This document shows, piece after piece, positions 1 through 54,061 of a DNA stretch of 64,000 bases (within the stretch, counting starts at the first letter, position 1; each line of letters starts with the position of its first letter). The position numbers and the translations under genes are program-made. The notes under the pieces were generated by a model, which was not told where the DNA came from, did not search any database, and saw only the letters and a list, made by a program, of their open reading frames with translations. The stretch is from Tethya wilhelma (taxonomy: Eukaryota; Porifera; Demospongiae; Tethyida; Tethyidae): positions 4,676,917 to 4,740,916 of the forward strand of contig CAXIPT010000006.1 of the NCBI GenBank assembly GCA_964030475.1. The letters are read 5' to 3'.

Positions 1-41
<41 letters not shown>

Positions 42-50
42 ACATACACA
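1..50. repeat. (CA)n microsatellite at the window edge
   Basis: Nearly pure CA dinucleotide run, decaying into CATACA. It ends about 40 bases before the first RhoGEF acceptor at 88/89 and is the tail of an intron whose 5' exon lies outside the window. Confidence 0.95.
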
Positions 51-88
51 CTCGTACAGATTCCCAAGGCCCTCCCATTGTGCCTCAG

Positions 89-3000: not shown

Positions 3001-4106
3001 GATCAACTCCAAGTACCATGATAAGAGAATGTCCCGATACAATTCTGACGATGCTTTAGTGTCACCGTCGAGAAAGGCCGAGCAACATCCCCTGAGTCCC
3101 GTAGAGGAGAGATCGGCAAGAAGTACCAGTCCCATGGTCCCTGGCGACCACATCACCTCCTCCACCTCTCCACAGTTAACGACCTCGTCTGCTCAGGGGG
3201 TGGCCATGATCAGCGGGGAATCGGAGAACGAAGAGCCAACTCAAGAAGCCGAGCAACTCGCCCGAACCATTTCAATGAGCTATCCCGAGCTGGCCATACA
3301 GGACGAGCCCTCCTGGGACAAGACCATTGATCGGAGGTTGTACAAGAAGCTGAACAAGGCAGAGAGAGAGAGACAGGCCATTCTCCACGAGCTTTTACAG
3401 ACAGAGAAACACCACTTTAGAGCTTTGCACGTCTTGAAACTCATCTTCCGTCAGAATCTCATCAAGCACGTTTCAGAGAGTTCACTGTTGCAGATGTTCC
3501 CAGAGTTAGACAGCCTCATCGCCATCAGCGATGGATTCATAAAGAAACTGGAGGCCAAGAAGAACGGGATAATGATTGACGATTTCAGTGACGTTCTCCT
3601 TGATCAGTTCTCGGGTGAGAGTCAGGAGAGGATGTACGAAGCATTTGGTTCGTTCTGTCGCCACCAGCTAGCAGCCACCGAGATCTACCGAGAGCACATG
3701 AAGAAGAAACCGTTCGCCAAGCACATGAAAGACTTGCACAGCCTGAAAGAATGCCAGCGATTGACCCTCCCAGACTACTACACCCGTGTGAGCCAGCGTC
3801 TCTCAAAGCTCCTCACTTTGATTCAACGTTTGGCGAAGAAGACTGAAGCTCTGAAGCTAAACCACGCCGAACGGGTCCACAAGAGCCTTGGACAGCTCCA
3901 GACGCTCATGTCCAACATCGACCAGAGTGTTGAGGACCACAAGAATAGGATGGCAGCAGTTTACATCCAGAACAGGCTGGAGGTGACGCTGCCTAGGTCA
4001 ACAAAAAATAGGAAGGACCTCAAGTGCTTGAATCTGGCAGCTCAGGATAGAAAGTTGAGGAAACGTGGAGAGGCAATGTGGACGCATCACGGAAAACAGC
4101 TCTGTA

Positions 4107-4150
<44 letters not shown>

Positions 4151-4917
4151 AGTGCATGTCCAAATGTACATATATGACTGTTTTCCCAGATACATTTGAG
4201 TAAACACACTAATGTACATTTCCCATGTTATTGATAGTGAAATGCCCCCGTCTACTCCACTGCCTTTTACAGTCAATCCCTTCCTCCATTGAATGTACTC
4301 TTATCTCTGTAGTAGCACAAACACCCATTAGCGTTGAACAAACAATGTACATGAAAAGAATGACTGTTTTGGAGTAGACGCAATCGCCAGAAAAAACTTC
4401 CCCCATTGTCATGTGATGCTGTGGTATAAAAAACTTTCAGAAACACACAAGATTTACTTGCAGATATTCAGTTGAAGTGCATCAAATCTAGTTGCTATAT
4501 GTGTTCAGAAAACAGCTGATTTTTGATTGAAAATCTGTCAACTAATAAGTAATTTCAAGCCTTTTGTTTGAAAGAAGTAATTACTGTATTTGGTGTTTCT
4601 GCTTCTCATTGTCTTCCCTCCAGATGTCCAAGTGGTGCTGGTGACTGACCTCCTTGTGCTGTTGACAGAGAGAGACCAGAAGTACCACTTAGCAACACTC
4701 CAAGATCTCAAGGTGAGCTAGTTATACACACAAACTTACTGCCATGACATTTATTGAGATAGACAGTAGGGACAGCTTACGTGGTTTCTCTATACTACAT
4801 ATATACTGTCTTTCTCGAGGTAAAGTCGTTAGCGACTGGGAATGAAGCTAGTGAAATGTATACACTCCACTTATATTTAACCTCTTTTGAGTCTCAGTAT
4901 AATAGAATTATTACACA

Positions 4918-4958
<41 letters not shown>

Positions 4959-7900
4959 GGTATGTGCAGCCTCCTGTTATCAGACTGTATGATCTTCACG
5001 TCCGTCTCAACGCAGCTGTGAAGGCTGGGGTACAGCTCCTCCTCTTGGAGCAGGGCAACCAGCCTGAGATGTTCAGGTTGGAGTTCCTCACAAAGAAAGA
5101 AGCTAAAGAGTAAGTCATGCAAAGATTCTGAAACAAGACCAAGAATGTTTCAGTCTAGGAAGGCCCTATGACAATGGGACTAGCACCACTGTGATCAGCT
5201 CAAAGAGATCTTTTAAATGATTTGGTTTAATACTAGATTTGGTTTTACTCAAATTTCACCAAATACCATGAACTGTATGATTTGTCATTTTCAAATTCTA
5301 TATAAAGCACACTATCTTATAGCATTTTATATCTCTCTTTGAGCTGATTACAATGGTGCAAGTCCCAACTTCGTACGACCTTCCTAGACTGAGATATGGT
5401 CAGTGTTGATTAGTACGATGCTTCGTATAAATTAAAGCATCTTTGTAATAGTAATTATAATAATCGTGTCGATTGCTCCGCCCCCTCAGGTGGGAGAGTA
5501 CATTGAACACTGCCATTGAAGAGTGCAGACAGAAAGGACTAAAGTGTGGTAAGTCACGTCAGCATTATATGTAAAATCAAAAAAAATATTTGTGTTTCAA
5601 TTGTAAAATTAACATACATGTAAGTTCTTGCCTGGTTATTATCGATTTTGATGTCCATAGTACGAAATGAAATAACCCATGCGATTGTACAATCAGTATA
5701 AGATAAAATAATTTTGTGCTATCAAAAGATTTAAATTAAAGTTCTTGCCTGGTAATTATGAATACCACTTGATGTGTGTGTGTAGAGTTCTTTGGTGAGG
5801 AGAAGGTCTTGTCTGGTGACGAGGAAAGACGTTCTGAGGGAAAGGAAGGGGACAGCGACCAGGAGGAGGCAACGGCCATCATGACCTCCAGACAACCCTC
5901 CTTCCGATCAACCTACTCCAGCAGTCCAAAGTGAGTTGGTCATCACTATATCACTATCACTTGTTGTTTGTTTGTTTGTTTGTTTGTTTGTTTGTTTGTT
6001 TGTTTGTTTCTAAAGATGATAAATCAGTTTATTGAAAGAGCATAGAAATAGCTTATGGAACGCCATATGCGACAAAAATAAAGTTTTCAGTTATTGTGAT
6101 TTGCGATTGAACATTTCCGATTTCCGATTGATAATTTCTGATTTTTAATTATTGATTTCTGATTTCTGATTTTTGATTTTTGATTTTTGATTTCTGATAT
6201 CTGATATCTGATTGTCGATTTTTGATTTCTGATGTCTGACTTTTGATTTTTGATTTTTGATTTCTGATATCTGATATCTGATTGTCGATTTTTGATTTCT
6301 GAAATCTGATATCTGATTGTCGATTTTTGATTTCTGATTTTTGATTTTGATTGTCGATTTTGATTTCTGATTTTGATTTTTCTTGCCGATTTTGAATTTT
6401 TGATTGTCGATTTTTAGTGTCGATTTTTGATTTTTGATCTTTGATTTTTGATTTTTGATTTCTGATTTTTGATTTGATTTTTGATTTTTTTATTGTAGAT
6501 TTTTGATTTCTGATTGTCAAAATCGACAATCAAAATCAGAAATCAGAAATCAAAAATCGACAATCAGATATCAGATATTAGAAATCAAAAATCAAAATCA
6601 AAAATCAAAAATCAGAAATCAGAAATTATCAATCGGAAATCGGAAATGTTCAATCGCAAATCACAATAACTGAAAACTTTATTTTTGTCGCATATGGCGG
6701 CGTTCCATAATAGCTAGCTTCAAAAGAAATTTGAAAAGAATGATTTCAATCAGCTAAATCTATTCAGTGAAAGAGCATAAAAATTAGCCTTGTTCCCAAG
6801 GTTATATATAAGCGGGGAAGGAGCCTGGGAACAAGGCTGCGTAGAAATAGCTCTGAAAGAAATTTAAAAAGAATCATTTCAATCAGCTTTCACTTCAGAC
6901 TTGCTCTTTCATCTTGCAATCTCTTTTCCCCCTGACCAATCACAGCTCAAGAAGGATACAGCGAGCCAAAGAGAGCCTTGAACTAGCTGCTCGTCTTCTC
7001 AGCATTTCATCACAGAGCTCTACCCTCACTGGCGACACTGGCTCCGCCCAGAGACACCAAGGAGCGGCTGCCGTTGCTAACCTCTCAAAGAACCCCATCA
7101 CTCGAGAGAGTCCAAAGAATCGCAACAGATCTCAGACCATCCAACAGATTGGAGCACCGCGGCCCAAGACGGCTTACTTCACAAATGATGATGATGAGAA
7201 CACTAACAAGAGTGCAACCTTTGCTGCCCAGTCCGGGGAACATGTGATCTCGCCCCCCATTCCTCCCCCGTCCGCCCAGAAGAAGACAAAGAGCGAGAGA
7301 AGGCGAGGGAAGTTGGACAGGAGTTCGACGTTTCGTAGCAAAGAGAAGGACAAGGAGAGAGAGAAGAAGGCGGACAGTGGGACCGCCACTGGGGATGGAG
7401 GAGAGGGGTTTCGTATCCTCGAGCAACGTTACATCGAGTGCGTGGCCGGACTGAAGGAGGCCCTGGAGGAGACGATGGTGAGTTGGATGAATGAAACTGA
7501 TTTTTTACTGTTTGAGTTAGTGTTCAGTGAAACATTTGTGTTCACTGTTGCTCAAGAACTAAGTCATTGCTAATTTTTAGTGGTAAAAATTCTTACATAA
7601 CTATCAACTAAATTTATTTGTTATCATTTTTGTTTTGTGTTTCAGGAAGCATCAGAGGCGAAGGACGAGGAAATTCTAAAGCTCCGAAACGAAGTTGAGT
7701 CGTTGAAGGAGACCATCCGTGACCTTGAAGACGAGCGCAGCGAGGATCACCACCAGGGAAACACTAACGGGATGATCCCTCGGCACTCCCCCCGCTCCTC
7801 TCCCCCTCAACCGAGACCCCACTCGATCCACATCGACCTCTCGGAGCATGAGGACACACTCGCAAGATTAGTGGCGGGCGAAGGACCGGCTCCCCCTACT

Positions 7901-9468
7901 AAGAGTGAATTCCTGGTCGTTATGACTAATCACAATAACGAGGTTGTCAATAGCAACGCTACAAAGTGTCANATCGACAATCAGATATCAGATATCAGAA
8001 ATCAAAAATCAAAAATCAGAAATCAATAATCAAAAATCAGAAATTATCAATCGGAAATCGGAAATGTTCAATCGCAAATCACAATAACTGAAAACTTTAT
8101 TTTTATCACATATGGCGTTCCATAATAGCTAGCTTCAAAAGAAATTTGAAAAGAATGATTTCAATCAGCTAAATCTATTCAGTGAAAGAGCATAAAAATT
8201 AGCCTCGTTCCCAGAATATATATACGCGGGGAAGGAGCCTGGGAACGAGGCTACGTAGAAATAGCTCTGAAAGAAATGTGAAAAGAATCCATTTCAATCA
8301 GCTTTCACTTCAGACTTGCTCTTTCATCTTGCAATCTCTCTTCTCCCTGACCAATCACAGCTCAAGAAGGATACAGCGAGCCAAAGAGAGCCTTGAACTA
8401 GCTGCTCGTCTCCTCAGCATTTCATCACAGAGCTCTACCCTCACTAGCGACACTGGCTCTGCCCAGAGACACCAAGGAGCGGCGGCCGTTGCTAACCTCA
8501 CAAAGAACCCCATCACTCGAGAGAGTCCAAAGAATCGCAACAGATCTCAGACCATCCAACAGATTGGAGCACCGCGGCCCAAGACGGCTTACTTCACAAA
8601 TGATGATGATGAGAACACTAACAAGAGTGCAACCTTTGCTGCCCAGTCCGGGGAACATGTGATCTCGCCCCCCATTCCTCCCCCGTCCGCCCAGAAGAAG
8701 ACAAAGAGCGAGAGAAGGCGAGGGAAGTTGGACAGGAGTTCGACGTTTCGTAGCAAAGAGAAGGACAAGGAGAGAGAGAAGAAGGCGGACAGTGGGACCG
8801 CCACTGGGGATGGAGGAGAGGGGTTTCGTATCCTCGAGCAACGTTACATCGAGTGCGTGGCCGGACTGAAGGAGGCCCTGGAGGAGACGATGGTGAGTTG
8901 GATGAATGAAACTGATTTTTTACTGTTTGAGTTAGTGTTCAGTGAAACATTTGTGTTCACTGTTGCTCAAGAACTAAGTCATTGCTAATTTTTAGTGGTA
9001 AAAATTCTTACATAACTATCAACTAAATTTATTTGTTATCATTTTTGTTTTGTGTTTCAGGAAGCATCAGAGGCGAAGGACGAGGAAATTCTAAAGCTCC
9101 GAAACGAAGTTGAGTCGTTGAAGGAGACCATCCGTGACCTTGAAGACGAGCGCAGCGAGGATCACCACCAGGGAAACACTAACGGGATGATCCCTCGGCA
9201 CTCCCCCCGCTCCTCTCCCCCTCAACCGAGACCCCACTCGATCCACATCGACCTCTCGGAGCATGAGGACACACTCGCAAGATTAGTGGCGGGCGAAGGA
9301 CCGGCTCCCCCTACTAAGAGTGAATTCCTGGTCGTTATGACTAATCACAATAACGAGGTTGTCAATAGCAACGCTACAAAGTGTCAGACTGCTTCTATTC
9401 CCGAGCAAGAGGAGGAGGAGGATGAGGAGAGTGGAGTCGTGAGGATAAGAGGAGGGTCCAGAACCTGA
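89..9468 (+). CDS. Lbc-family Rho guanine nucleotide exchange factor (ARHGEF2/18/28, AKAP13-like), 5'-partial
   Basis: Activates Rho GTPases by GDP/GTP exchange, probably at the cortex or cytoskeleton. Exons read from the sequence: 89-4103, 4624-4712, 4970-5109, 5490-5548, 5786-5930, 8361-8892 and 9061-9468; phases agree throughout (about 1795 visible residues). The first exon is a 4 kb block of Ser/Thr-rich disordered protein with a polyQ run at 2857-2883. A DH domain follows at about visible residues 1095-1290 (ILHELLQTEKHHFRALHVLK, then LLDQFSGESQERM). The PH domain is spread over the next exons (VVLVTDLLVLLTERDQKY, PPVIRLYDLHVRLN). The last exon holds a coiled coil (LKLRNEVESLKETIRDLEDE). 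DH-PH-coiled coil is the Lbc-type order; no C1 domain is seen, but the 5' end is missing. The last two exons also occur at 6946-7477 and 7646-7971 in a duplicated haplotype block and should be counted once. Confidence 0.88.
5151..5391. mobile_element. Inverted-repeat element (MITE-like), family B, copy 1
   Basis: Begins CAGTCTAGGAAGG and ends with its reverse complement CCTTCCTAGACTG. Inside, GATCAGCTCAAAGAGATC is mirrored by a GAGCTGATTACAATGGTGCAAGTCC arm. It lies in a RhoGEF intron. Related copies are at 25920-26218 and 58659-58927. No ORF inside, so non-autonomous. Confidence 0.75.
5963..6008. repeat. (TTTG)n tetranucleotide microsatellite
   Basis: About eleven TTTG/GTTT units in a RhoGEF intron, directly upstream of the family A inverted-repeat element. 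Confidence 0.9.
6056..6707. mobile_element. Foldback/MITE-like element, family A, with GATTTTT satellite core
   Basis: The outer arms start TGGAACGCCATATGCGACAA and end with the complementary sequence closing in CGTTCCA. TA flanks both sides, suggesting a TA target-site duplication (Tc1/mariner-like, inferred). The arms run well over 80 bases. The core is a degenerate array of TGATTTTTGATTTCTGATATC-type units on one strand, then their complement, so the whole element can fold on itself. The right arm recurs at 7973-8121 because of the assembly duplication. Confidence 0.75.
6556..7971. repeat. Duplicated block, copy 1 (RhoGEF last two exons), ends at single n
   Basis: Matches 7973-9386 with scattered substitutions and small indels, including synonymous and intronic changes. 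It carries a second copy of RhoGEF exons at 6946-7477 and 7646-7971, the latter cut short by the n at 7972. The pattern fits two haplotypes placed in tandem by the assembler, not a real gene duplication. Confidence 0.85.
6785..6842. mobile_element. Short inverted repeat TAGCCTTGTTCCCA, family C, copy 1
   Basis: TAGCCTTGTTCCCAAGG faces GCCTGGGAACAAGGCTGCG across a short AT-rich centre with AGCGGGGAAGG. Related to 8200-8257 (the same locus in the other copy) and 52420-52523. Confidence 0.6.
7973..9386. repeat. Duplicated block, copy 2 (RhoGEF last two exons, continuous with the stop codon)
   Basis: Second copy of 6556-7971. This copy continues past 9386 into the genuine stop codon at 9466-9468, so it supplies the usable exons 8361-8892 and 9061-9468. 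Differences from copy 1 in coding sequence are few and mostly silent or conservative. Confidence 0.85.
8200..8257. mobile_element. Short inverted repeat TAGCCTCGTTCCCAG, family C, copy in the second haplotype block
   Basis: Same arms as 6785-6842 but with AGCCTCGTTCCCAG and CCTGGGAACGAGGCTACG, so the arms co-vary (TTG/CAA in one copy, TCG/CGA in the other). Confidence 0.6.
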
Positions 9469-10338: not shown

Positions 10339-10634
10339 CAATCTCAAACACGTGGTCAGTGCGATTGCTAATGAGCCCCGCCCATTTACATTTTCTTGCG
10401 TAACGGGAAGTAATAAAGCCACAACTTCCTGTCTAGTTTTGTTGCATTAGCGCATGCAACACACACCCTCCCACTGTTGCAAAAGAAGGCTGTGGCCCTT
10501 GGAGGTGTGAATCGAACGTTCGGTTTTCTCTTACTACAGACCTTCGAAATCAACTCGTTTTTGTCAGAAACTTGAAAAAGATTCAACTCCCATTCAAGTC
10601 CGATACAGTTCAACTCAAGAAAGGCGAGAAACGA

Positions 10635-12134
10635 ATGGCTACGGAAGGCATCATTCAAAGCGGGCCAACTCCCCCTTTCTCTCCTCAGTCTCAATCGAGC
10701 CACACCGCCTTCTTGACAGCGGACACACTCCCAACAATTAATGTGGATACTACTACCACAACAACTGCCACTCCAGTTTCAACTCAAAAGCCCAAACTGC
10801 CTGGCGAAGAGGCGAACACGACTGCTCCTGCTATCCAGAACAACAACTCAACAGCTCTATTTCTCGTTGCCAAGGTACTGGCTAATTTGAGCCAAGAGAC
10901 TTTGGCTAGGACGTGTTTGGCCGTGAATCCCGAGCGTTTTGTGACTCCATCCGAACCAACACCGCCTGCTTCTCTCACTTCTACTCCCATCACGACTACC
11001 AAGCCACAAGAACTGCTGTTTTCGGCGAACCAACTCACCGCGCAAAATGACCAACAGCAACAAAACGAACAGTTGCAGATCAAGACGGAGAAGACGGCGA
11101 CAGCAATTGGTGCCGTGCAGCAAAATCCAGACCTAGCGTTCATGAATATCGAATCTTTACTGAATGCTGCCACGAATGCCACTTCCAGCTCCGATGCGAT
11201 TCAGCCCAGCCCCCCTTCTCCGTCTTCGCCAACTGAAGCCGAATCGCAGAGTCTTTCTCAATCTCACAGCTCCTTCACGAGTTCCGTGAGCTCAATTTCA
11301 GGCACTGAGAGTCTTTCTCCACAGACCACACCAACTGGAGGGTCAGGAAAGCCCAAGAAACGTACGCATATCTGTCCTTGGGAAGCATGCGGCAAAGCAT
11401 ATGGCAAGAGTTCTCATTTGAAAGCTCACATCAGGACTCATACTGGAGAACGTCCCTATCCTTGCAGCTGGGAAGGCTGTGGAAAGAGATTTGCTCGTTC
11501 TGACGAGTTGGCACGTCACTTCCGTACCCACACCGGAGAGAAGCGATTTGCCTGTCCTGTCTGCGACAAACGCTTCATGCGTAGCGATCATCTCAGCAAG
11601 CACGTGAAACGTCATGCTGTGAATCAAGCTAAAGGTCGAGACCCGCTCGCTCTGAAAGGAAAAGCTCGAGCTGCAGCGGCTGCTGCTGCTTACCCCAGCC
11701 GAAGGGAGAGTGGGAATTCCGTCACCTCTCCGCTCACACCTGTCACGCCCATCACACCCCTCACTCCCATCACCCCCGGCTCCATCAAAGGATGGGACAC
11801 ACAGATCGCACTCATCCAACAACAACAACAAACGATGCATACCAAAGTCATTCCAAAGTCAGAGTCACCAGATACGCCCACCCCCACTGGTGCTGGACAG
11901 GAGCCAACTCTCACTACTGATGAACCAATGGATGCCGATCCACCTAGCCTCCCAGCAACCACCACAGCAGTAGCACTATCTTCCCAGCTCCCTGTACAAG
12001 CATCAATTGTTCCCATCACTGTGGCCAAGAGTATCTCTGCCACTACTCCCATTGGTACCCTCCTTCCAAGGAGTGAGCCTGGTACTACCACTACTGCTAT
12101 GATAGTGCTTACTACTCCCAATACACAAGCTTAA
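10635..12134 (+). CDS. Krüppel-like factor, three C2H2 zinc fingers
   Basis: Sequence-specific nuclear transcription factor of the SP/KLF family that should bind GC-box/CACCC sites. One uninterrupted exon encodes 499 residues from the first in-frame ATG; an upstream extension has only a TTG. The three fingers span residues 245-327. They have canonical spacing, the HTGERPY and HTGEKRF linkers, and the recognition helices [14 protein letters not shown] and RSDHLSK typical of the family. The N-terminal 244 residues are Ser/Thr/Pro/Gln-rich and open with [10 protein letters not shown]. Unlike most KLFs, about 170 residues follow the last finger, including [16 protein letters not shown] and a Q run. 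No SP-family Buttonhead box was seen just before the fingers. The exact KLF subgroup cannot be fixed from the fingers alone. Confidence 0.92.
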
Positions 12135-13668: not shown

Positions 13669-14585
13669 AGGTCTTTTTTTTTCTTTCTTTTTTTAAATGT
13701 TATGCTCATGTGTATTGTATGTTGAAATGTACATTTGTAACGGTTTTGTATCTCAGTTAATAATTGTTACATTGTTATATATGTCCATGCTGCATTTGCT
13801 ATGTACACAAAAAATTATAAAGCATTATATACTTGAGAAAATGTTCACTTCAACATGTTAAAAAACAATAAATTGTGACATTGATGTGTATGTGTATGTA
13901 TGTACACATGATAGAGGTGAGCATTATTTAGAATTAGGGTGTGGCACATTTCATGTACAATAAAAAACACATTATCTACAGCACTGTAACATTGCACTAC
14001 ACCATTGTAATTGTTATACACATAAAATTTTCAATCCTAGACAATTTGTTGGGACTCTGCAAAGCACTTTGAGCACATACCCTCTCTCTCTGCACTCCCA
14101 AAAAACTGGCAGCCTTGAGTCCTACAAGTCATTTTCCTGTCTCCACTGCTAATGTTTATCGGTTGAATGCTATCTCTAGTGTATCTGCCACTGCTGGGAC
14201 TACTGGTGTTCTGTTTCTTATAGTTGGAAGCCATTAGACCACTTGAGTTCACCTGTCTACCAGGGTAAGGTGGAGGAGCCTTTGGGTGGGGTGAAGACTG
14301 AGATTTTGAGGACATTTTTGGCAGAGATGAGGTATTATTAGCAGTGTGTGATGATTGTGCAGCTCTTGGAGGTACTGCTGGAGGTGGTGCAGAAGTAGTT
14401 GTGTGCTTTGGACTCACAATAGCGTGGCTTGAATTCTGAGTTCCTTTCGAAGTGGTTTTGGGAAAAGTTTGAAATGCCGAAGACTGAATGCTTGATTGTG
14501 GGCTCACAGAAGGTAGACCTTGGTATGGCAGCTCCCTGTGTTGGTCCACAGGATCAGGCGAGGGATGGCGCTGATACATCGGAGG
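13669..14585. repeat. Duplicated block, copy 2: genuine OTUD7 3' end
   Basis: Second copy of 12751-13667. It is continuous with the rest of the deubiquitinase reading frame beyond 14585, so it is the copy to use for the gene model. Confidence 0.85.
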
Positions 14586-15987
14586 GCGATAGGGAGGGGG
14601 TGGGCGGGGATTGGCACCCTCTGGGACACTCTTAGGTGCAGCGACGTTTCCTAGATGTTCGGGACTAGCACTCGATTGCTTTGAGAGCTGTTTTTGGTAG
14701 CACATTGAGCAGAGGTTGTTTGTAGCTGCTCTTCCAAACAGATCACACCCCTCACCTTCGCAAGGTACGGGCATGTTCTCTAGTTTCTTCTTTTTCTCCT
14801 CCTCTCTACGGAGGCGGTTCTCCTTCTCCTGTTCGTACTGTTTGCGTATGTTCTGAAGGTACTTGTCCACCAGCTCCTTCTGGTAGATCGGCTGAGCCTC
14901 TTGAGTGATGCATGCAGCTGGGAACCTGACCTTGGGCACTTGAACGGGAAAGAGATGATCGTAGTCTTCGTCAGTTGCCTGTCGTTGCTGCTCTATGGTT
15001 GGCACCTTCAGCTGGATCCATCTGAGGTCCATGTAGCTCTCTATTAGACGAATGATGTCATCGGGGAATTCCCCAATTGGGTACTCCATCTTGGACCACT
15101 TTTCTTTCACATTTTTCTTTTTTGGGTCGAAAATAAACTGCACAGGAAGTAGCGAGCCATCGGGTGTGACGAGAGGCATGACGGTTTCTTTACGCGAGTT
15201 ACCACGAGCGTACTTCACCCTACTCTGGTACTGCTGTTGTGATTTACTCTCTTGTTGGACATCTTCTCGTGCCACGAGTGGAGAAAAGTGAGCCGAATCG
15301 TATGCCAGAACGAGCGGTGATTTGTAACAGGCGGTGGGGTTGACTTCAAGAGGGAGATAGATGCCACCGAAGTAGATGGGAGCCAAGTCCTGCCCGCTGT
15401 AATCCTTCAACATGTTGTTAGAGATGATAATGATGGCTCTGCGGATCACGTGTGCCAATGCAAACACATGCACCTCTTCCAAACTCTCGTAACTCAGTCT
15501 CAAAGAACTGTAGCGCTTCAGCGATGCTGTCACAGGCTGGCGACGAGGCTTATTGGTAGCGATACGAACAATCTCTCCCCATTCAAACTCCCACTCCTCT
15601 TCAGAGAACCTCAGTCCCCCGGCCTCGTTGTTCCTCAGTTGGGTCTGGTACTGCCATCTCCTGCGAATGGCGTCTCTCTCTATGCCCGACGTGAGGAGAC
15701 GATGAAGAGCTGTCCTCAGGATGAGCTCTCTGTCGTGGAAGCCCCACATGTAGAGGGAGGCGGCATGAAGGAGGCAGTTCCCATCGCCAGAGGTCGAGAG
15801 GGGCTCGAGACGAGGGAGCTTCCCTGTCGTTGTCCACCAATTAAGACGACCTGTGATTGTAATGTGTGTTAGTGGTGCAACGTGTTTAATAATCATAAGT
15901 TTAAGAGTGTGGGCATGTTATTGCATGCTTGAGTAAAAGAGCATGTACACACACAGACACATTTTATCATTAAGTGAAGTACATGTT

Positions 15988-25919: not shown

Positions 25920-26218
25920 GGATACATTCTGGGCTGTGCATCTCAGTCTAGGAAGGTCGTATTGAGCTGGGATTGGTACCATTGCAATCAGCTTGAAGAG
26001 ATCTTTTAAATGATTTGGTTTATATGTAGATTTTAAATTTTGACTAAAATGGTCAAAACCATGTTTTATAGCCTTTGATCAAGTGTGATTTTTTGACAAA
26101 AATGACCTTTTTTCAATTTTCAAATTACACCATATCATTTAAAAGATCTTTTTGAGCTGATCGCAATGGTGCTAGTCCCAGCTTCTAACAACCGAAGGTT
26201 GCTGTTTTAGGAGCAGAT
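25920..26218. mobile_element. Inverted-repeat element, family B, copy 2
   Basis: Contains TCTCAGTCTAGGAAGGTCGT and GAGCTGGGATTGGTACCATT. The opposite arm reads GAGCTGATCGCAATGGTGCT then CCCAGCTTCTAACAACC. It lines up along its length with 58659-58927, including the outer GATACATTC..GGCTG start. Confidence 0.75.
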
Positions 26219-26267
26219 AATATTAATAATTATTATCTCTTATCCACCAATGCTGTCTGTTCCACAG

Positions 26268-28497
26268 TATAACTACTCAGTTGAGAATAAAGTTTTGGAA
26301 CAGGCTAGAACCAGAGCTCGCTCTATAGCCTCTGAGGCGTCTCTGGAGAGAAGGAAGCTCAAAGAACAGCAAGAAGAAGCTGCAGCAGCAGAGACAACAG
26401 ACCGTCAAACAGCTCCCCTTTTACCCTTTCTGGCCAGCGATACCATCCTCACTCCTATTCCAGTTACAAACAATACCAGTAATACCAGTCAAACCAGTTC
26501 TGATTCGAATGGACAAACTAGTCAAACTGGTTTAGCCAGTGATGGTGGAGCAACTGCTGGAACTCAAGCCAAAAGCACCGATGCAAGTAGTGCTATCAAA
26601 TCTCTCGGACAGTTAAGCCTGAGAGAATTTGAAGATGATAATTTTGACCCATTCGAGATAACTAGTTTGCAAGCCATTAACGACTTAGAGGTACTTCAGA
26701 GTGTACTGCAGCCGACTGTTGTTAGCCCACCTGCGTCCGTTGCTACTAGTAACTCATCTCCAATTAGTGCCCACCATCCACAGCAGGAAGAGGCACCACC
26801 AAACCAATCATCGTCAGGGGTTACCCCTCAATCAGCAGCTATTGTTACCGTAGCAACACAACAATCAACCACACCCACTCCGCTACCAAGAACAAATCTC
26901 AAACCAAATACATCGCCAAAACCAGCTGCAAGAAAACTCTCAGAACCCACTTCTTCACGAACAGCACCTCTCCCCCCTCCTCCAGCATCACCACCATCAG
27001 TGGCTCCTACCGTGATGCCAGGGAGGAGTGGTAGTGCTCCCAGTATGGATGTAATGGCACAGCTGAATCAGCCTCCTCAAGACCTGTTCTTCTCAGTGAC
27101 TCCAACACCTGTTGTGTCCACTAACCCGTTTGCTAGTCAGACCCCGACTCACACCTCCTCCGCTCTCCCCTCCTACCCCACCCTCCCTTCCTCACTACCA
27201 CCTTCTTCCTCACCTTCCGCTGGTTCAACTGTCACTAATCCTTTTGCCGTCGCCACAGTAACACCAACGGTTGCTGCGACTCTCCCTCCAGCTGTCTCCG
27301 TGGCTCCGAGCTCCGAGGGAGGGGGGCCCAGCGTGGGGACTCTCATTGAGATAGGCAGTTCACCTGCTGTGTCAGTGGAACAGCAGCTGCCAACTCCTCC
27401 AGTGCCAGCTGTACGACACTCACCTCTTCAGGTATAAAATTGAAGGATATTAATTTTACTGTAGGAGGAAATTTTGGTATCGAATATCGGAAAATTTTTA
27501 CACAATAATATTCCAATCTATGGTATGCAGTTTACCTGTATTGTGTATGCCAATTGTACTTTTGTGTGAGTTTTCAGAATATCTTTCTCTAATTGTCAGT
27601 CTGTTCAGGTCCCTCCCCCCTATCCCACATCAACCACTCCCTCCCAACAGCCTCAGGGCGTTCCTACGTCTCAATCATCCAGTCCTGTTCCCAAGCCTCG
27701 GTCACACCTTCCTTCGTCACAACAGACACGCCCACTTTCTGCCGGCGAGAGAGTATTCAATGGACAGTCGTCACAGCCACGCCCACCTCCCCTCGGACCA
27801 AAACCGACATCTGCGAGTAACGTGAGCCCCCAGTTGCACCCTCGTCTTGGCCTAGGAGTACCTGTCCTCCCGCCAATTCCCACAGCCAGTGCAACAGCCA
27901 CACCCACCAGTGTGTCTGAGTCACACCCACCTCCTTATAAGGCTCAAGTGACTCCGCCCACTAAACGAGCGTCTCCCCCGCCACCTTATCGAGCCTACGA
28001 TCAGCAATCTCAACAGCAAAGAGGTCAAAGTCCACCACAAGTGGTACCGAGGCAGTATAAGCTACCAGATCTACAAGTAAGCCGTCATATTTCTAAATAA
28101 TGCACACTGTTGAATGTGATTCTATTTAATGCCCACTGTGTGCTGCTTTCATAGTCGAGTTTGAGCAGTGAACAGAAGTCTGAGGTGAACTCCATTGCTG
28201 GAATGGGCTTTCCTTCGCCACGAGTGGCAAGAGCTGTCCTTAGATACGATGGAGATCGATCTAAGGTGTGTGTGTGTGTGTGTACGTGTGTACGTGTGGG
28301 TGGGTGTGGAGAATTTGATGAATAAATTGACACTTTTGTTCTTGTATTAAACCTCATTTGCTGTGCATTTGTAGGTTCTTGATTTTCTGTTTCTTGTTGG
28401 CCATCTTGAAGAGCTACGCTTCAATGGAGATTCTGCTGAGACAGCACTTTTAGCATGCAAAGAGGACAGTGAAAAGGTGTGTTGACAGTTTGTGTGT

Positions 28498-29115: not shown

Positions 29116-31373
29116 CTATGATGTCAGTTCAAACGTCTTGTAAGCTACGACAGTTCCAACTAGATCATGTGATGCACATGTGAGTGGTACGGCGATCTGC
29201 GACTGCAGAAGAGAGATGTTCTGCGACACCTGCTTCAGGAGGGAAACCCTACCAATCATGGCGCACGTCGAGGGAGGTCCCTGAAGGATCTCCGTGTCAG
29301 GGAGGAGAACAATGTCGGCACCTTGAGCAAAGAACTCCATCATCGTGAACACGAACCCACGTCTCGATCCCCTTTTCATTCCGCTCCCGTCCACGATCAC
29401 GGTGACATCATTGACGAGGGTGTGGCACGAGGAGCACACCTCCTGCAGTGACATGTGCTGACAGTGCTTCATGTACGAGTAAGGCTGATAGCACACAGCT
29501 GCCACGCGGTTTGATCGTATCGCCATACTCAACATCCTCCTGTCCATTGGGGAGGCTAGGTCCCCTAGCTCCCAGTCGTAGGCTCCCGTCAATGCTGTAC
29601 ACGTCTTAAGGGGTCCGCTATCCTGGTTGCCATGGCAACAGGCATCGTGGAGGACCGCCAGTGGTAGGCCTTGTCTGGAGTTGATGCGACGGTTTATGCT
29701 GAGCGGGTCGATCTTGAGCATGCTTGCTGAGACAGCGATGATGTAAGCTGCAGCTCTGGAGGGGGCGATGATGATGGTGTAGTCGTCAGGGGGTAGTGAG
29801 AGGGCCTGGATCATGTGAGACTCACATGACTTGGTAAGAGTGACAGGGTTGACTGTTTCTTTGAGTGCTGACTGCATGGCTTGAATCTGTACGAGAATAA
29901 TATCAATATCACAGTAAAGTATTAGTTTCTTCAAGTCATATTGAATACAAGCAAACCCAAAATGTCTGTTTGACCAGAGTGAACATTAATTAGAAGTGCT
30001 CCTACCAAGCCACCACCAACACATATCAGTCCACTTACCACTGAAGGGAGTATGGTATCACATGGCTGTGAGTCTAAACCAAACAGAAGATCATACACCG
30101 AGCGCTCTTCTTCTACTTCTTTATCTTCTTGGTCATTTGTTGATGTCTCTTGAGAGAAGTCATTTTCATCGGCACTGTTTTCTGGCGATGCTGCTCCACT
30201 TGTCACAGCAGGTTCAATGATGGTGGTGAAGATCTGTTGGAAACTGTTTGCCAAAGAAGAAGAAGAAGAAGAGGTAAGGTTTGTGTCTCCAGCTGCCCCT
30301 TCTGGTGGTCGGGATTGGCTGCCCACTTTCAAAGGGGTGTGCAGTTCAAACAGCCCACTTTGGATGCCCGTGGAAGTGACTCTCCTCTTTGAAGTGGAAC
30401 TACTGCTACTTGCTAGTGGACTGTCAGACAACAGTTTGGAACGTTTGCTAAGAGTTTCTAAGCTGATCTGAGGTAGCCTACATTTAGGAGATCTCTTCTG
30501 TGCACGTTGCATTGTAGGGACGCTGCTAGCTACTGATTTGTGGGTTCCTAGAGGAGATGAGGATGGAGTCCTGATTTTTCCAGGTATTCTAATGTCACGA
30601 GCTTGTCCTGGAGGCTTTGTCTTGCGTCTACAACCATAACCATGGCTACAAATATCACACGAAGCAATCTAAAAGGACAGAGCCACACACACACATATCA
30701 GTACCATCCTGTCACATGACATACAAATGACAATTGGTTGCTAAGAACCTACACACTCGCAGATGTCCTTCCTTTGGCCTTTCCAAAAGTACTGCTGTCC
30801 AATCAGCTCCAGCATCTTATCTCTCCTGTGGTGGAAATTATCGCTGCCCGTCATCACGTGGATCTCATTGCAAATCTTCACCCTCTCGTCATAACCCCTC
30901 ACAACGAGCACGGTTGATACACTAGTGCCATCTTTGGAAGGTTTGGAGTAGTACAGCTTGTTATCGCTGCCCAGGTTGTAGCTGGAAGCCGCCTTTGCGA
31001 TTCCGGTTGGATTTTTCTTTGGTAGTGTTTTTGTTTTGAGATATTCATACATTTGATCGTAGAACATCTCCCAGCGTGAGATGTCAGCTTGCAGCTGTTC
31101 ACTGTGTACACCATCACTTTCAAGAAGGGCACCATTTGTGGTGGAGGTGGTGGTGTCGTTTTCGTGATCAATCGTGTCTGTTGTCATGACTACAATGGGT
31201 GGAGTGTTACATGACGTAACACCAGTTGACACGGCAGGTGTATTTGTATCAATATCTGTTTGTGGATTGCTGCCATCTAAGATGAGCTCAACCACACTTG
31301 GAGTTGATGTTTCAGTGGCAGTATTTGTGCATTCATAAGGTACACTCATGGCTTTTAGCATTGATTCTACCAT
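29116..31373 (-). CDS. Integrase-type H2C2 zinc-binding domain fused to a SelA-like PLP-fold domain (lysine lost)
   Basis: Coding exons (minus): 31373-30753, 30668-30039 and 29886-29116, each a multiple of three, 673 residues. Residues about 110-215 resemble the integrase H2C2 module: YDQMYEYLKTKTLPKK, LYYSKPSKDG, then HVMTGSDNFHHRRDKMLELI and QQYFWKGQRKDICECIASCD completed by IC across the first splice. A basic, Ser-rich linker follows, then an acidic stretch. The C-terminal 256 residues resemble bacterial selenocysteine synthase SelA: TIIIAPSRAAAYIIAVSASM, VAAVCYQPYSYMKH, VTVIVDGSGMKRGSRRG and ADIVLLPDTEILQGPPSTCA. In SelA the last motif carries the Lys that holds PLP; here no Lys is present, so classical catalysis is unlikely. 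No reverse transcriptase, protease or DDE core is seen, which suggests a domesticated host gene. A 5' UTR exon probably ends at 31516 with the acceptor before 31398. Function unknown; the SelA relation is recognition from memory. Confidence 0.7.
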
Positions 31374-31688: not shown

Positions 31689-33034
31689 TTAATCAGAGTC
31701 TGTAAAGATAGTCTTCTTTCCTTGAAACTGTTCAATGCCCCTCTCTTGCTGTTTCTTCATTCTACTAGCTTGCCAAGATGGATGGAGTGTTGCTGCAGCT
31801 GCTGCTGCTGTGTCAGTGGACAATGGTGATGCTTTTGATGATGAAGTTCTTGGAATCACTTGAGTTTTCTTCTTTGTGCTAGTTCCTGGGTTAATTAATG
31901 GATGTCAATGTGTAAATGAGAGAGGCTGTATGTTTGTTTGAGTGAATGTAGAATACCTTTATCTTTGGTCAAGTGAGTAGCTTGGCCACCGTATTTTGAG
32001 AGCCACAATCTGTATGTACAGAAGAGAGTGCCATTGACTAAAATGATACACACAATAATAGTGACTGTATCTCACTTCCTTCTAGCTCTCTGACCAAGAC
32101 GATTTTTCAACTTTTAAAAAAAAAAAAAAAAAGAAACTGGTTAAACAATATTCATTCAACAGTAGTCAACGATCCAGTTCACCACTGCAACTTACTTTAT
32201 GCCTGGCTTTGCTAGATTTAGTTGTTGAAGAGCTTCTCTTAGTCTGAGAAGTGAGTTTTGTTCCTTGGCCACTGACAGACAAGGAGCTCACAAATATGGA
32301 GTCAATACTTCTCTGGGGAGCCACTTTGACGGATTGAGAGGCTCCACTCTCTTCAAGAGAGTCATCTTCTTCATCTTCTGATGTCATTGCATCATTGCCA
32401 TCTGCATCGCTTGAATCCGATGGAACAGTTCTTGATTTCAAGATCTCTTCTTGGTCACCTTGCTTTCCTGTCCTACAAACTGCATCTTTCGTCCTAGCAT
32501 CAGCTGTCCTGACTGTATTCGTCCTGATGAATCTTTGCAATGATTTGGAGGAAAGAATTCTCCATTTTGCTCTTTCATTGAGACTTGTTGGAGGCTGCAA
32601 CATCACAAAAAAAATAATCTTTGTAAAATCTACCCTGACAAACAATTTGCTAATCTTATCCCCTCACATTTCTCTCCTGCCATTGTTCATCACCTTCAGT
32701 TCTGTCGTTGAGATAGTCAACCAGTTCAGTCAAATTGACTTTCTATATGGATCAAAAATGAACCCATACATGATTGGAAACACACACTGAGTTACTTTGA
32801 TAAGCTCCAGCTCTTCTTGTAGTCTGCTGACTTTACGTTGGTTCTTTTGAATTTGAAGTTCATTGCCTCTGAAATTTTGAGAAACTAAGTGATTTTGTTC
32901 TTGAGGTGAGAGTGCAACCAGATACTATTGTTAGCACACCTTTTTCTTCCAAGGGCCTTAATTCGTTTGCTTACTCTCTGAATTTCAAACAGTCTTGCTT
33001 TCTTGAGCTCTCTCTTCAAGTGAGTCTGCATCAT
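31689..33034 (-). CDS. SRFBP1: SRFBP1/BUD22-family protein
   Basis: Nuclear/nucleolar protein; yeast BUD22 acts in 18S rRNA processing and vertebrate SRFBP1 binds serum response factor. Exons (minus): 33034-32940, 32868-32796, 32742-32668, 32594-32196, 32110-32076, 32009-31957 and 31885-31689. Phases close, giving 308 residues from MMQTHLKRELKKARLFEIQR. The N-terminal coiled coil continues GNELQIQKNQRKVSRLQEEL, as in the BUD22 domain. A Ser/acidic middle (MTSEDEEDDSLEESGASQ) follows. The C-terminus carries the family hallmarks KNRLGQRARRK, LHPSWQASRMKKQQ and FQGKKTIF just before the stop. It is shorter than human SRFBP1 (about 430 residues), mainly in the disordered middle. Confidence 0.9.
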
Positions 33035-48752: not shown

Positions 48753-51700
48753 GTAGTGGACATGCTAGATGGTCTGTCGTTAGAGTATGCCATTTTGTTT
48801 TGAGGTTTTTGTGGATCATTATGGTCGCAGTTCACTGCACACTCGGGTTGTGTTTGCTTTGATTTGATAAGACGATTTGCCAAGTATTTTATCCGCCATA
48901 TGTTTCAGCCTTGTAAATCACTCAGTGCATCTTAGTAGTAGGTAGCCAGCCACATTGCGACATATACCTGCATAAGAAGGTGTGCANCTCTCTTCCCCTC
49001 TCCCCTACAAAAACAAGAAATAAAAAATTAACCCCCCCCCCTTCCCCCTACACACAGACTGTTTGATAATACTAAGTGTTTGTGTGTTTGTTTGTGCCCT
49101 CAGGGGCTGTAGACCAGTCTGGTGTGTGGGAGGCCCAGACTGGTGGTCAGTGATCTCTGTGTGCATGCATGGTGCTGTAGACAGGACAGGGAAGAATGTA
49201 GTAGCTCCTTTCTTCATGCTTGAGTGCTTCCTAATTCATCCCAGCTGCATTTCCAGACAGCAGGCAGGCATGCAGCGCAAGGTGATGTGATGGAGGTAGC
49301 ACACACTGCATTCTTCATGGTCTAGTGAGTAAGGTATTGGTTCAGTAGTGGACCCAAGGCCCGAGGGTGTTGTGATGTGTGCCAGTCAAGGAGGGAAGAA
49401 TGGTAGGAATTTTTGCCACTGGCTTATACTTGTTGTCTTCTCTATTGGAAGCTGCTGATGCGTGGAAGAGATGATGTCATGGTTTGGTTTCACATGCATC
49501 AAGAGGGCTGGCCAAATAAGTCACTGTGGTCTTTAAGTTGGGGCATTGTGTGTGTGATACAGTGTTTTAGTAAGGAATATGTGCTAGTGGTATAATAACA
49601 TAAAGATGAGACTAGTCCGACTAGAAGGGTTCATGATACTTGTTATCTAAATGATTACACCACATGAAGATGTTTCAATTGATTACACCTCATGAGGAAT
49701 GACCCTCATGCCAAAGACTAGTGCCTGAACTGGTTTGTCTCAACATCTTCTGATACAGTTCTATATCCTTCTTTCAATATCATTAGGGTGTCTGTCTGTC
49801 TGTGTGTGTCTAGCCTAATCGTTTTATCATCTGTTTGAAATCTATCACAGCCAGTGCTGCTGTGTCTGCCAGAGAGAGAGTGTGTGTGAGAGAGCCAGGG
49901 CTGTGTGTGGGGGAGAGGAAGGAAGTTTATTCGGTATTGATTAATTTGTTGATTGTCCAGAGTGAGTTACGGTATGTCTTAATTTGGTTTTCTGTTGTTT
50001 AAATTAAAAATAAACTGTGTGTGTAAGTTTCAAGCATGATGTAATGTTGATGTCATTGTTTGGTTTATTTACAGCTCGTTACCATGTTGATGTAGGGGGC
50101 AACCCCCTTGCTGCTATTGGACACTACCTTAATGCCATCGCACTGGACTCCACACAAGGTAAAACACTTATACACACACACACTTTGAGGAGAGATCTCA
50201 ACCCTCTAAGTGGTTGGTAGGGTGTGCCTACCAACTGACACAGGAAGGACCTGCATGTCTCTGCATGGGCTCTGTGTTCACTGCCTGGTCCTCACCACTT
50301 CAATCTCCTGTGGTCTAACTCAGCTCCATGATAAAACTCTCCCCTTTGTAAAGCTGGCTTCTGGTTTCCTCCTTGCATGCTCCATGGTTGCTTCTCTTGG
50401 CAGGATTTTTCCTGCCATTCTCACTCATTCTTGGTAGCAAAATATATACAGGGCCATTATCTATAGCCTCCTATTGTCTGGCTTCAGTTTCACTATTAGA
50501 GTGAAATCATTTTACAGCAAAATGGAAGAAGAGGGAATTCTTTTGCTACCTCCATGATGTTTTGAGAGTTTGTTTCTCTTTCCTTGCAGGCACTCCTTAC
50601 AACCAGCTAGCCGTCATGGCTGGGACCAAGAACGAGGGCCTTGATGCAGTCTACTACTATCAGAGAAGGTACGTAATTGTATCATGTGATAATCATGTGA
50701 CATGGCAATGCCCTTCGTACCTGTTCACGTGACCAGCCCATCCCCCTTTAACCCTGGCTGCCTGTGTGATAATGATGACCATGAACATCTGTTGTGCAAA
50801 GATTGTATGTTTAGTGTTGCCGGTAACACCTCCATTCTGATATGCATGAGTGAACGCAAGGTATTTCCATACCCCATCAAAATACCTCTGCTTGGAGGTA
50901 CTCCCTACTTCAGCCTATAGCTGACAATAAGGAATACTATGAAAACTATTGGTTGTGACATTTTTGTCCGTAAAAGTTGCTTCTACTTAGACACGTGCTC
51001 CAAAACTTTTTTTTGTTTCTTATAAGATTAATAACCCTCAATTGATGATATCATGCTTGCTACTCATTCACTATGGTGTCGCCGTGGCGATGGGATTGTA
51101 CTCCAAAGTGGTGTAATGTGTGACTCGCTATGAATGTGGTAGGAATGGTCCGAGGCTTGGCAAGTTACAGACACCCCATCTGTGTGTGAACCTGAGTCTA
51201 CATGGGTGGGCAATTAAAAAGCAATTAAGCAATATCTTATCATTTGTTCCACTTGAGTGAGTATGAACCCCCTGAGGAGATATAGGTATGGACTGCATAG
51301 AACCATCACCACTATACTATATCAACCTCATGCCAGATTGGACCAGATCAGATAGTGATATACCTCTGGCCACTCTATCTCTCTCTCTTTCTCTGTAGCT
51401 GCGTCTTTCAAGCCACCCAGTTCTCTTGTATGTCTTCCATTTTCATTCTGCCTCTTCTCAGATTACAGCCCATGCCTTTGTTGTCATGCTTGGATGGGTC
51501 TGTGGCTATAGCTGTATGCATTGCAGCCTCCCTCAAGCATGCATGTGCCTGCCTGTTTGAAGGCACATGGCCACGTCAGCCATTGTGATGGTTGAATCCC
51601 TTTTGAAACGCTGCATGACAATAAAGTGATGCTTCTTTGGACATTAGATAAGGAAAAGAAAGATAAAGCCACTCCATATTGTGTGAGTGTGTATGATATG

Positions 51701-54061
51701 CTCTCTGACCACATCCCAGAGGTAGTCTCCTCACCAACTGTCAACAGATACCCCTCTATGGCAGTTGGGTTGGACCGTGATGAAACATTATTAAAGGGAG
51801 AATTTGACCCTGACCGTTTTATGGGTAGATATTGACATTTTTTTTCTTTTACTAGTGGTTTCTGGCTCGGTGTGTTTGGAAGGTTTTCTCCAATTTTGAG
51901 AGGCAATGGCATGATAAATTGTTCACTCAATTCAATGATGTAATGATGATGCAATGACTAGCTGCTAATGATGTAATATCAGCAGCTTTGCCAGTATTAT
52001 CATTGTGTGTAGAGCTTGCAGGCTGTGTGCATTATTTAGAATGTCAAGATGAAATTATTAAGAGTGTGCTCCCAATCAATATACCCCCACAGCCTGTGTG
52101 CCCCAACCCCATTCAAACTATCAGAGACAAATTTGCTGCGCATCTATGAAACTAACTCCTCTCTCCTCGAATCCTTGCAATCTAAAGCCGAGCACACGAC
52201 AGAACCAAAGATAAGGTAATATTGTACTGTCAGACAATTTTTAGCTTTTGTTTTTGGTGACCATTTACCATACTATGTGTATGTGTATACCCACTGTTAT
52301 TGCAGGGAGTTTACTAAACGACTGCTTCTTGTACGCTTCCTTCGTTTGCAACAAGTGCTCTGTCCCAGTGAGCAGTAAGTGAAACATATCTTATTATTAC
52401 AGTTATATATGTGACTACCTAGCCTCATTCCCAGGCTATTCCTTTGCAAATATTTTCTTTTTCTTTCCCTCCTTCTTTATTTTTGAAGAAAATGTTCGCA
52501 AAGGAGGAGCCTTGGAACGGTAGNAAAACTTTTTTTTGTTTCTTATAAGATTAATAACCCTCAATTGATGATATCATGCTTGCTACTCATTCACTATGGT
52601 GTCGCCGTGGCGATGGGATTGTACTCCAAAGTGGTGTAATGTGTGACTCGCTATGAATGTGGTAGGAATGGTCCGAGGCTTGGCAAGTTACAGACACCCC
52701 ATCTGTGTGTGAACCTGAGTCTACATGGGTGGGCAATTAAAAAGCAATTAAGCAATATCTTATCATTTGTTCCACTTGAGTGAGTATGAACCCCCTGAGG
52801 AGATATAGGTATGGACTGCATAGAACCATCACCACTATACTATATCAACCTCATGCCAGATTGGACCAGATCAGATAGTGATATACCTCTGGCCACTCTA
52901 TCTCTCTCTCTTTCTCTGTAGCTGCGTCTTTCAAGCCACCCAGTTCTCTTGTATGTCTTCCATTTTCATTCTGCCTCTTCTCAGATTACAGCCCATGCCT
53001 TTGTTGTCATGCTTGGATGGGTCTGTGGCTATAGCTGTATGCATTGCAGCCTCCCTCAAGCATGCATGTGCCTGCCTGTTTGAAGGCACATGGCCACGTC
53101 AGCCATTGTGATGGTTGAATCCCTTTTGAAACGCTGCATGACAATAAAGTGATGCTTCTTTGGACATTAGATAAGGAAAAGAAAGATAAAGCCACTCCAT
53201 ATTGTGTGAGTGTGTATGATATGCTCTCTGACCACATCCCAGAGGTAGTCTCCTCACCAACTGTCAACAGATACCCCTCTATGGCAGTTGGGTTGGACCG
53301 TGATGAAACATTATTAAAGGGAGAATTTGACCCTGACCGTTTTATGGGTAGATATTGACATTTTTTTTCTTTTACTAGTGGTTTCTGGCTCGGTGTGTTT
53401 GGAAGGTTTTCTCCAATTTTGAGAGGCAATGGCATGATAAATTGTTCACTCAATTCAATGATGTAATGATGATGCAATGACTAGCTGCTAATGATGTAAT
53501 ATCAGCAGCTTTGCCAGTATTATCATTGTGTGTAGAGCTTGCAGGCTGTGTGCATTATTTAGAATGTCAAGATGAAATTATTAAGAGTGTGCTCCCAATC
53601 AATATACCCCCACAGCCTGTGTGCCCCAACCCCATTCAAACTATCAGAGACAAATTTGCTGCGCATCTATGAAACTAACTCCTCTCTCCTCGAATCCTTG
53701 CAATCTAAAGCCGAGCACACGACAGAACCAAAGATAAGGTAATATTGTACTGTCAGACAATTTTTAGCTTTTGTTTTTGGTGACCATTTACCATACTATG
53801 TGTATGTGTATACCCACTGTTATTGCAGGGAGTTTACTAAACGACTGCTTCTTGTACGCTTCCTTCGTTTGCAACAAGTGCTCTGTCCCAGTGAGCAGTA
53901 AGTGAAACATATCTTATTATTACAGTTATATATGTGACTACCTAGCCTCATTCCCAGGCTATTCCTTTGCAAATATTTTCTTTTTCTTTCCCTCCTTCTT
54001 TATTTTTGAAGAAAATGTTCGCAAAGGAGGAGCCTTGGAACGGTAGCTACCTACTCACTCA

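Follow-up and report, generated by a model that had tools for sequence, protein, structure and literature searches.

How an animal gene might come to join a zinc-binding module of the kind found in transposases and integrases to a domain resembling a bacterial selenocysteine synthase, and what the resulting protein might do, is the question raised by a minus-strand gene in the window, that is, the whole 64,000-nucleotide stretch of Tethya wilhelma DNA analysed here from a genome assembly of 124.6 Mb. The best overall explanation, to which a probability of about 0.6 is given, is that the front part of a Ginger1-type transposase, consisting of a pre-H2C2 region and an HHCC module, would have been combined with a linker of low complexity and a truncated fold-type I domain of the SelA/DGL type to give a host gene, with one transposon intron retained within the zinc module. 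The molecular identity of the product, taken by itself, is very likely to be correct.

Each of the three exons (Table 1) has a length divisible by three, all are bounded by GT donors and AG acceptors with phase 0 joins, and the predicted spliced product is a single open frame of 673 amino acids and a stop. At the level of sequence, this bears out the proposal of the preliminary description that one minus-strand, three-exon, phase-0 gene with an intact frame is present. Exon 2 ends in the donor GTAAGT, which lies 152 bp from the exon 3 acceptor with equal phase. The linker between the two conserved parts (residues 223-417) is 36% serine, threonine and proline, and the C-terminal domain comprises 256 residues. 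The exon boundaries can also be read from relatives. One relative of exon 1, P0031, is 71% identical across the part searched, carries PF17921 at 32.4 bits and reads into a valine codon right after 'CEC', compatible with a GT donor; this was the only match among six candidates, a search that carries little weight for distant species. At the other junction, four of the 30 relatives of exon 3 (P0001, P0002, P0011 and P0022) extend past the acceptor edge, and all four have a glutamine, compatible with CAG, directly before [I/V/M]EA. Since the acceptor edge is conserved, exon 3 needs an upstream exon.

Table 1. Parts of the three-exon gene and two diagnostic residues of exon 3, in window coordinates
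Feature	Position	Strand	Description
Exon 1	31373-30753	-	Residues 1-207; N-terminus variable, followed by the pre-H2C2 region and the opening part of H2C2; ends ...KDICEC; in frame, with donor GTAGGT
Intron 1	30752-30669	-	84 bp, phase 0; interrupts the H2C2 module
Exon 2	30668-30039	-	Residues 208-417; IASCDICS supplies the closing C-x2-C of H2C2; a linker rich in Ser/Thr/Pro follows, with patches of basic and of acidic residues
Intron 2	30038-29887	-	152 bp, phase 0
Exon 3	29886-29116	-	Residues 418-673, then the stop codon; predicted large domain of fold-type I, SelA/DGL-like
Ile200 of exon 3	29289-29287	-	Stands where SelA (SGDK) and Cap15 (SGPK) have the Schiff-base lysine
Asp166 of exon 3	29391-29389	-	Aligns with Asp of Cap15 'VIVDA'; invariant in 31/31

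The flanks were inspected by eye: a same-strand frame ends at 31689, and plus-strand frames from 26211-28100 converge on the gene. The same-strand frames upstream of the gene occupy 31689-32663 on the minus strand, and their C-terminus presumably resembles SRFBP1/BUD22. Elsewhere in the window, a single long open frame at 14040-15917 on the minus strand combines an OTU protease with A20-type zinc fingers (zf-A20) and is taken by us to be A20/TNFAIP3-like; the plus strand carries a C2H2 zinc-finger gene at 10437-12131, which we assume to be KLF-like, and a RhoGEF-domain gene at 2-4174. In two pairs of open frames (51301-51957 with 52824-53480, and 7601-8026 with 9016-9465) the first 70 residues look identical, which suggests recent tandem duplications or assembly duplicates.

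The zinc module is completed by the predicted splicing. Pfam Integrase_H2C2 (PF17921, gathering score 25.5) matches exon 1 alone at 25.9 bits and the spliced protein at 33.5 bits (E 4.5e-8), and this rise on joining the exons indicates that the splice between residues 207 and 208, within H2C2, completes the domain; the likely zinc ligands are H172, H181 (or H182), C211 and C214. An HH and C-x2-C module completed exactly across a splice site had been proposed earlier, as had the lack of a reverse transcriptase and of a DDE core, and both points are upheld, Integrase_H2C2 being the only Pfam family found in the spliced protein at E<=0.01. A third proposal, that the gene is domesticated, here in the sense of not mobile, also gains support. 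Exon 3 has a single locus in the genome; for the H2C2 exon there is one strong locus, and its three other matches have E-values of 0.17, 0.22 and 0.81. The first of these three (contig C60) is located some 1 kb away from a match to a Ginger-type query. None of ten pairs of candidate terminal inverted repeats is convincing, since just one pair, 18 nt at 83%, flanks the coding span with an arm on either side, and relatives have been retained at 80% identity for exon 3 and 71% for exon 1.

The source of the zinc module calls for revision. It had been ascribed to a retroelement, and a Ginger1-type DNA transposon is now the probable source, because Ginger-like copies in the same genome are interrupted by an intron that matches in both codon and phase; the protein trees do not decide. 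In a genome scan in which 150 of 336 H2C2 candidates were scored, four matches (L118, L119, L120 and L121) end at profile position 48-49, all with an intron there, and the other matches among those inspected extend to position 52 or beyond. Three of the four continue into an integrase-like exon; the remaining one, L120, is fragmentary and shares 45% identity with the L119-based query. Pfam places H2C2 (58.2 bits) and a Ulp1-type protease (22.2, cut-off 20.7) in L118, with a partial rve match (25.1, cut-off 32.6) and a PHD match below threshold; these domains agree with the published description of the Ginger1 transposase (PMC2836005). L118 (contig C5, 984800-988800), L145 and L119 are intron-bearing, Ginger1-like transposon copies.

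Thirteen transposon loci were inspected at this site, the four matches ending at position 48-49 and nine from Ginger-type query matches. Donor and acceptor stand at the place and phase of the window gene's intron in L118, L119, L120, L121, L145 and L149; L146 has the donor only, and L144 and L151 the acceptor only. In L143 an acceptor-like site is shifted by one codon, in L148 the frame runs on without a break, and L147 and L150 are uninformative. The codon boundary and phase 0 are thus common to 9 of 13 loci, which were picked for match breaks near the site so that the proportion is not a frequency, and these represent about four diverged Ginger-like groups. Across the junction the sequences read, for example, WPGVSKDVYNY|IETCDTC in Ginger and WKGQRKDICEC|IASCDIC in the window gene, the bar marking the intron; a second, more upstream intron of L118 has no counterpart in the window gene. 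In a tree of the H2C2 module, which retained 25 of 30 gypsy-type or other loci (L002-L031; L006, L016, L022, L029 and L030 were dropped for stops or motif pattern), the window protein and three Ginger rows are joined weakly (support 68/96), and a topology of Ginger without the window protein is not rejected (AU p 0.52).

For the C-terminal half, the preliminary description had proposed a SelA-like domain, and structural comparison does recover a match to the SelA-type PLP fold, with Cap15 and DGL ahead of SelA. Single sequences say little here. Pfam assigns no family above cut-off to exon 3, a genome-wide search for PF03841 is negative at E<=1, and PDB searches with single sequences gave nothing meaningful and NCBIfam nothing credible. 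In a sequence-by-sequence scan of the alignment of exon 3 with its 30 relatives (A1, 31 sequences), three members touch Pfam SelA (PF03841), weakly and at best with E 0.045; PLDc_2 and a DUF touch four members each at similar strength, so the single SelA matches mean little. Profiles are more informative. The sole match of the A1 profile to solved sequences at E<=10 is Cap15 (8T7J, annotated 'putative selenocysteine synthase'; E 0.0061, 210 of 255 positions). When sequences were scored locally as a control, Cap15 reached 20.0 bits, against 6.3 for the best of 9,000 shuffled Cap15, DGL and SelA sequences; among 81 SelA sequences the highest score was 10.0, and both E. coli SelA (4.8) and the DGL piece (5.9) fell below the best shuffle. 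Eighteen of the 83 sequences exceed that mark, and the control shows that, individually, only Cap15 stands clear. A search with E. coli SelA retrieves both Cap15 (2.3e-14) and DGL (6.9e-11), and hhalign of A1 against SelA, Cap15 and DGL together gave 90.8% with a score of 50.8, compared with 21.2 for the best of 40 column-shuffled controls, over a match that covers 105 columns only.

The AlphaFold2 model of exon 3 built with A1 reached a pLDDT of 85.3 and a pTM of 0.86 (single-sequence pLDDT 33). The top five Foldseek hits to this model are four chains of Cap15 (best E 1.8e-13) and DGL (1.7e-11), followed by human SHMT2 (4.3e-9) at rank 6 and SelA (5.1e-9) at rank 7. VIA-align ordered DGL (20.7; 2.7 A over 220 residues), Cap15 (20.1; 2.8 A, 220), SelA (18.9; 3.2 A, 217, and 18.7; 2.9 A, 211) and methionine gamma-lyase (17.9; 3.1 A, 199); several more SelA entries, scoring 17.3-17.9, tie with the methionine gamma-lyases. 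The predicted fold of exon 3 is that of the SelA/DGL/Cap15 group, with Cap15 and DGL clearly ahead and SelA itself narrowly so. In fold and order of motifs the SelA-like assignment therefore stands, while an active SelA enzyme does not, the lysine being lost and the domain short.

The exon 3 family itself is well defined, its relatives being 45-80% identical and 250-282 amino acids long in 29 of 30 cases, P0030 being a 153-residue piece. None was found in viral contigs. A query with the whole protein found no homologue of the C-terminal region at E<=10 among 1,598 candidates, because the relatives were probably predicted exon by exon and fell outside the length limits. Three placements (HMMER on Cap15, HMMER on SelA, and hhalign) put the column of the Schiff-base lysine at residue 200. 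Lysine is the commonest residue there (15 of 31), followed by arginine (5 of 31), and in the other 11 members, which include the window protein, with isoleucine, and its 80% relative, the residue is I, D, H, V, Q, L or E; changes between lysine and other residues number at least six on the family tree. All 83 SelA, DGL and Cap15 sequences have lysine at this place (82 by pattern, one by eye), although SelA of closely related bacteria accounts for 81 of these. Exon 3 aligns with residues 42-267 of the 369-residue DGL chain and ends ahead of the small C-terminal domain. From these sequence comparisons we infer that the window protein is neither a selenocysteine synthase nor a PLP enzyme that works through a Schiff base. 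A working selenocysteine synthase was considered and rejected, as the lysine is lost and both a PF03841 match and the SelA N-terminal region are absent. Another part of exon 3, comprising residues 80-83 and residue 94 (near window positions 29647-29605), is conserved, with H80, C83 and Lys94 invariant in all 30 members covering them and D or E in the D81 column; H80, C83 and Lys94 may mark a new functional site replacing the lost PLP lysine.

It is worth asking how far other histories could account for the same gene. The zinc module could derive from a captured gypsy-type integrase fragment that acquired its intron later, by chance at the Ginger codon, and the abundance of H2C2 matches in the genome speaks for this; the undecided H2C2 tree is compatible with this origin, and of the three weak matches that the H2C2 exon has outside itself, those at E 0.22 and 0.81 sit in long open frames. 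This origin is nevertheless unlikely, for it would leave the equality of codon boundary and phase across four Ginger-like groups to coincidence, and random insertion exactly there is estimated at about one in 160 positions of the module. The same reasoning from shared introns has already been used to argue for the derivation of GIN1 and GIN2 from Ginger1 (PMC2836005). It is still less likely that two genes are being read as one, exons 1 and 2 forming an H2C2 gene and exon 3 belonging to a SelA-like gene with its true upstream exon elsewhere. The single match to the H2C2 exon among six candidates would suit such a split, as would the unequal longest contigs given for P0031 (1,862,718) and P0001 (947,887), but exons 1 and 2 both end in donors, the second shortly before the phase-matched acceptor of exon 3, and the conserved acceptor edge requires an exon upstream.

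A different objection concerns the enzyme rather than the gene. In some members of the family the SelA-like domain could still work as a PLP enzyme, either with the lysine kept or with arginine or Lys94 substituting; lysine being the commonest residue in the critical column, some relatives may bind PLP, and the arginine of five members also fits this reading. Asp166, whose counterpart presumably holds the PLP ring nitrogen, and Lys94 are invariant, which also speaks for this possibility. The residue is, however, neither lysine nor arginine in more than a third of the family and changes repeatedly on the tree, and in the model Lys94 would lie in a helix after strand 77-81, not at the lysine site. 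Moreover, the small C-terminal domain is absent, and R301, R332 and R346 of DGL, modelled near the substrate phosphate (PMC9529869), fall beyond the aligned part; an enzymatic role of this kind is accordingly rated as quite unlikely.

With the Ginger1-derived host gene as the preferred reading, a role can be sketched. Integrase N-terminal domains bind nucleic acid or help assembly, and the zinc module would likewise bind nucleic acid or chromatin, or aid protein assembly; the linker would be disordered; and the SelA-like domain would serve oligomerisation and/or the binding of a small ligand or partner. Relatives of the SelA-like domain form large oligomers; DGL is called octameric in a reference title within PMC9529869. 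The whole protein might then act as a scaffold or ligand-responsive regulator, perhaps nuclear, and comparable to MocR and GabR in logic, not descent, a role drawn by analogy and best regarded as tentative. A bolder version, rather unlikely at present, is that exon 3 represents an undescribed eukaryotic family of SelA/DGL-like pseudoenzymes, perhaps acquired from bacteria, whose fusion here to a domesticated Ginger zinc module would make a metabolite- or oligomer-controlled binder of DNA or chromatin, a counterpart of MocR in logic. A degraded PLP-enzyme fold in place of the integrase core would be a new partner among transposase fusions, and the gain and loss of lysine among exon 3 members would offer a natural case for the transition from PLP enzyme to non-enzyme.

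How does this protein compare with known systems? Among regulators, MocR proteins have a DNA-binding part with a PLP-type fold that can act as a sensor (PMC5320631). The likeness of MocR and GabR to the window protein is in logic only, a module of DNA-binding type standing N-terminal to a fold-type I PLP-like domain; theirs is a winged helix with an aminotransferase-type domain, and the DNA-binding part is unrelated. Descent from MocR was rejected, since neither a GntR winged-helix nor an aminotransferase-type Pfam domain is present in the window protein at E<=0.01. Among enzymes, SelA (PF03841) is alike in fold group and motif order, and its SGDKLLGGPQ segment aligns, whereas the window protein lacks a Pfam SelA match above cut-off, a conserved lysine and any counterpart of the N-terminal part of SelA, which has a tRNA role. 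The Cap15/DGL group shares 19-23% identity and has the PLP lysine and a chain of about 365 residues, in contrast to the 256 residues without the lysine in exon 3. To our knowledge, no SelA/DGL-type fold is otherwise known in animals, and word searches of open-licence PMC literature, with larger result sets sampled in part, found no paper on an H2C2 and SelA-like pairing or on an animal SelA-like family.

Among domesticated transposons, GIN1 (Gin-1) and Gin-2 resemble the window gene in the integrase-type H2C2 module and in having introns in common with Ginger elements; they are described as integrase-like (PMC2836005), unlike the window protein, which has a SelA-like domain and no DDE core in Pfam at E<=0.01. 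Imagin of malacostracans is likewise a domesticated Ginger1 gene, present in single copy and split into several exons, that has H2C2 and is no longer catalytic; it retains the integrase core, and the available portion of its source describes no fused PLP-fold domain (PMC12863088). Ginger-derived host genes are themselves already known, and the partner domain, for which no description was found, would be what is new in the gene presented here.
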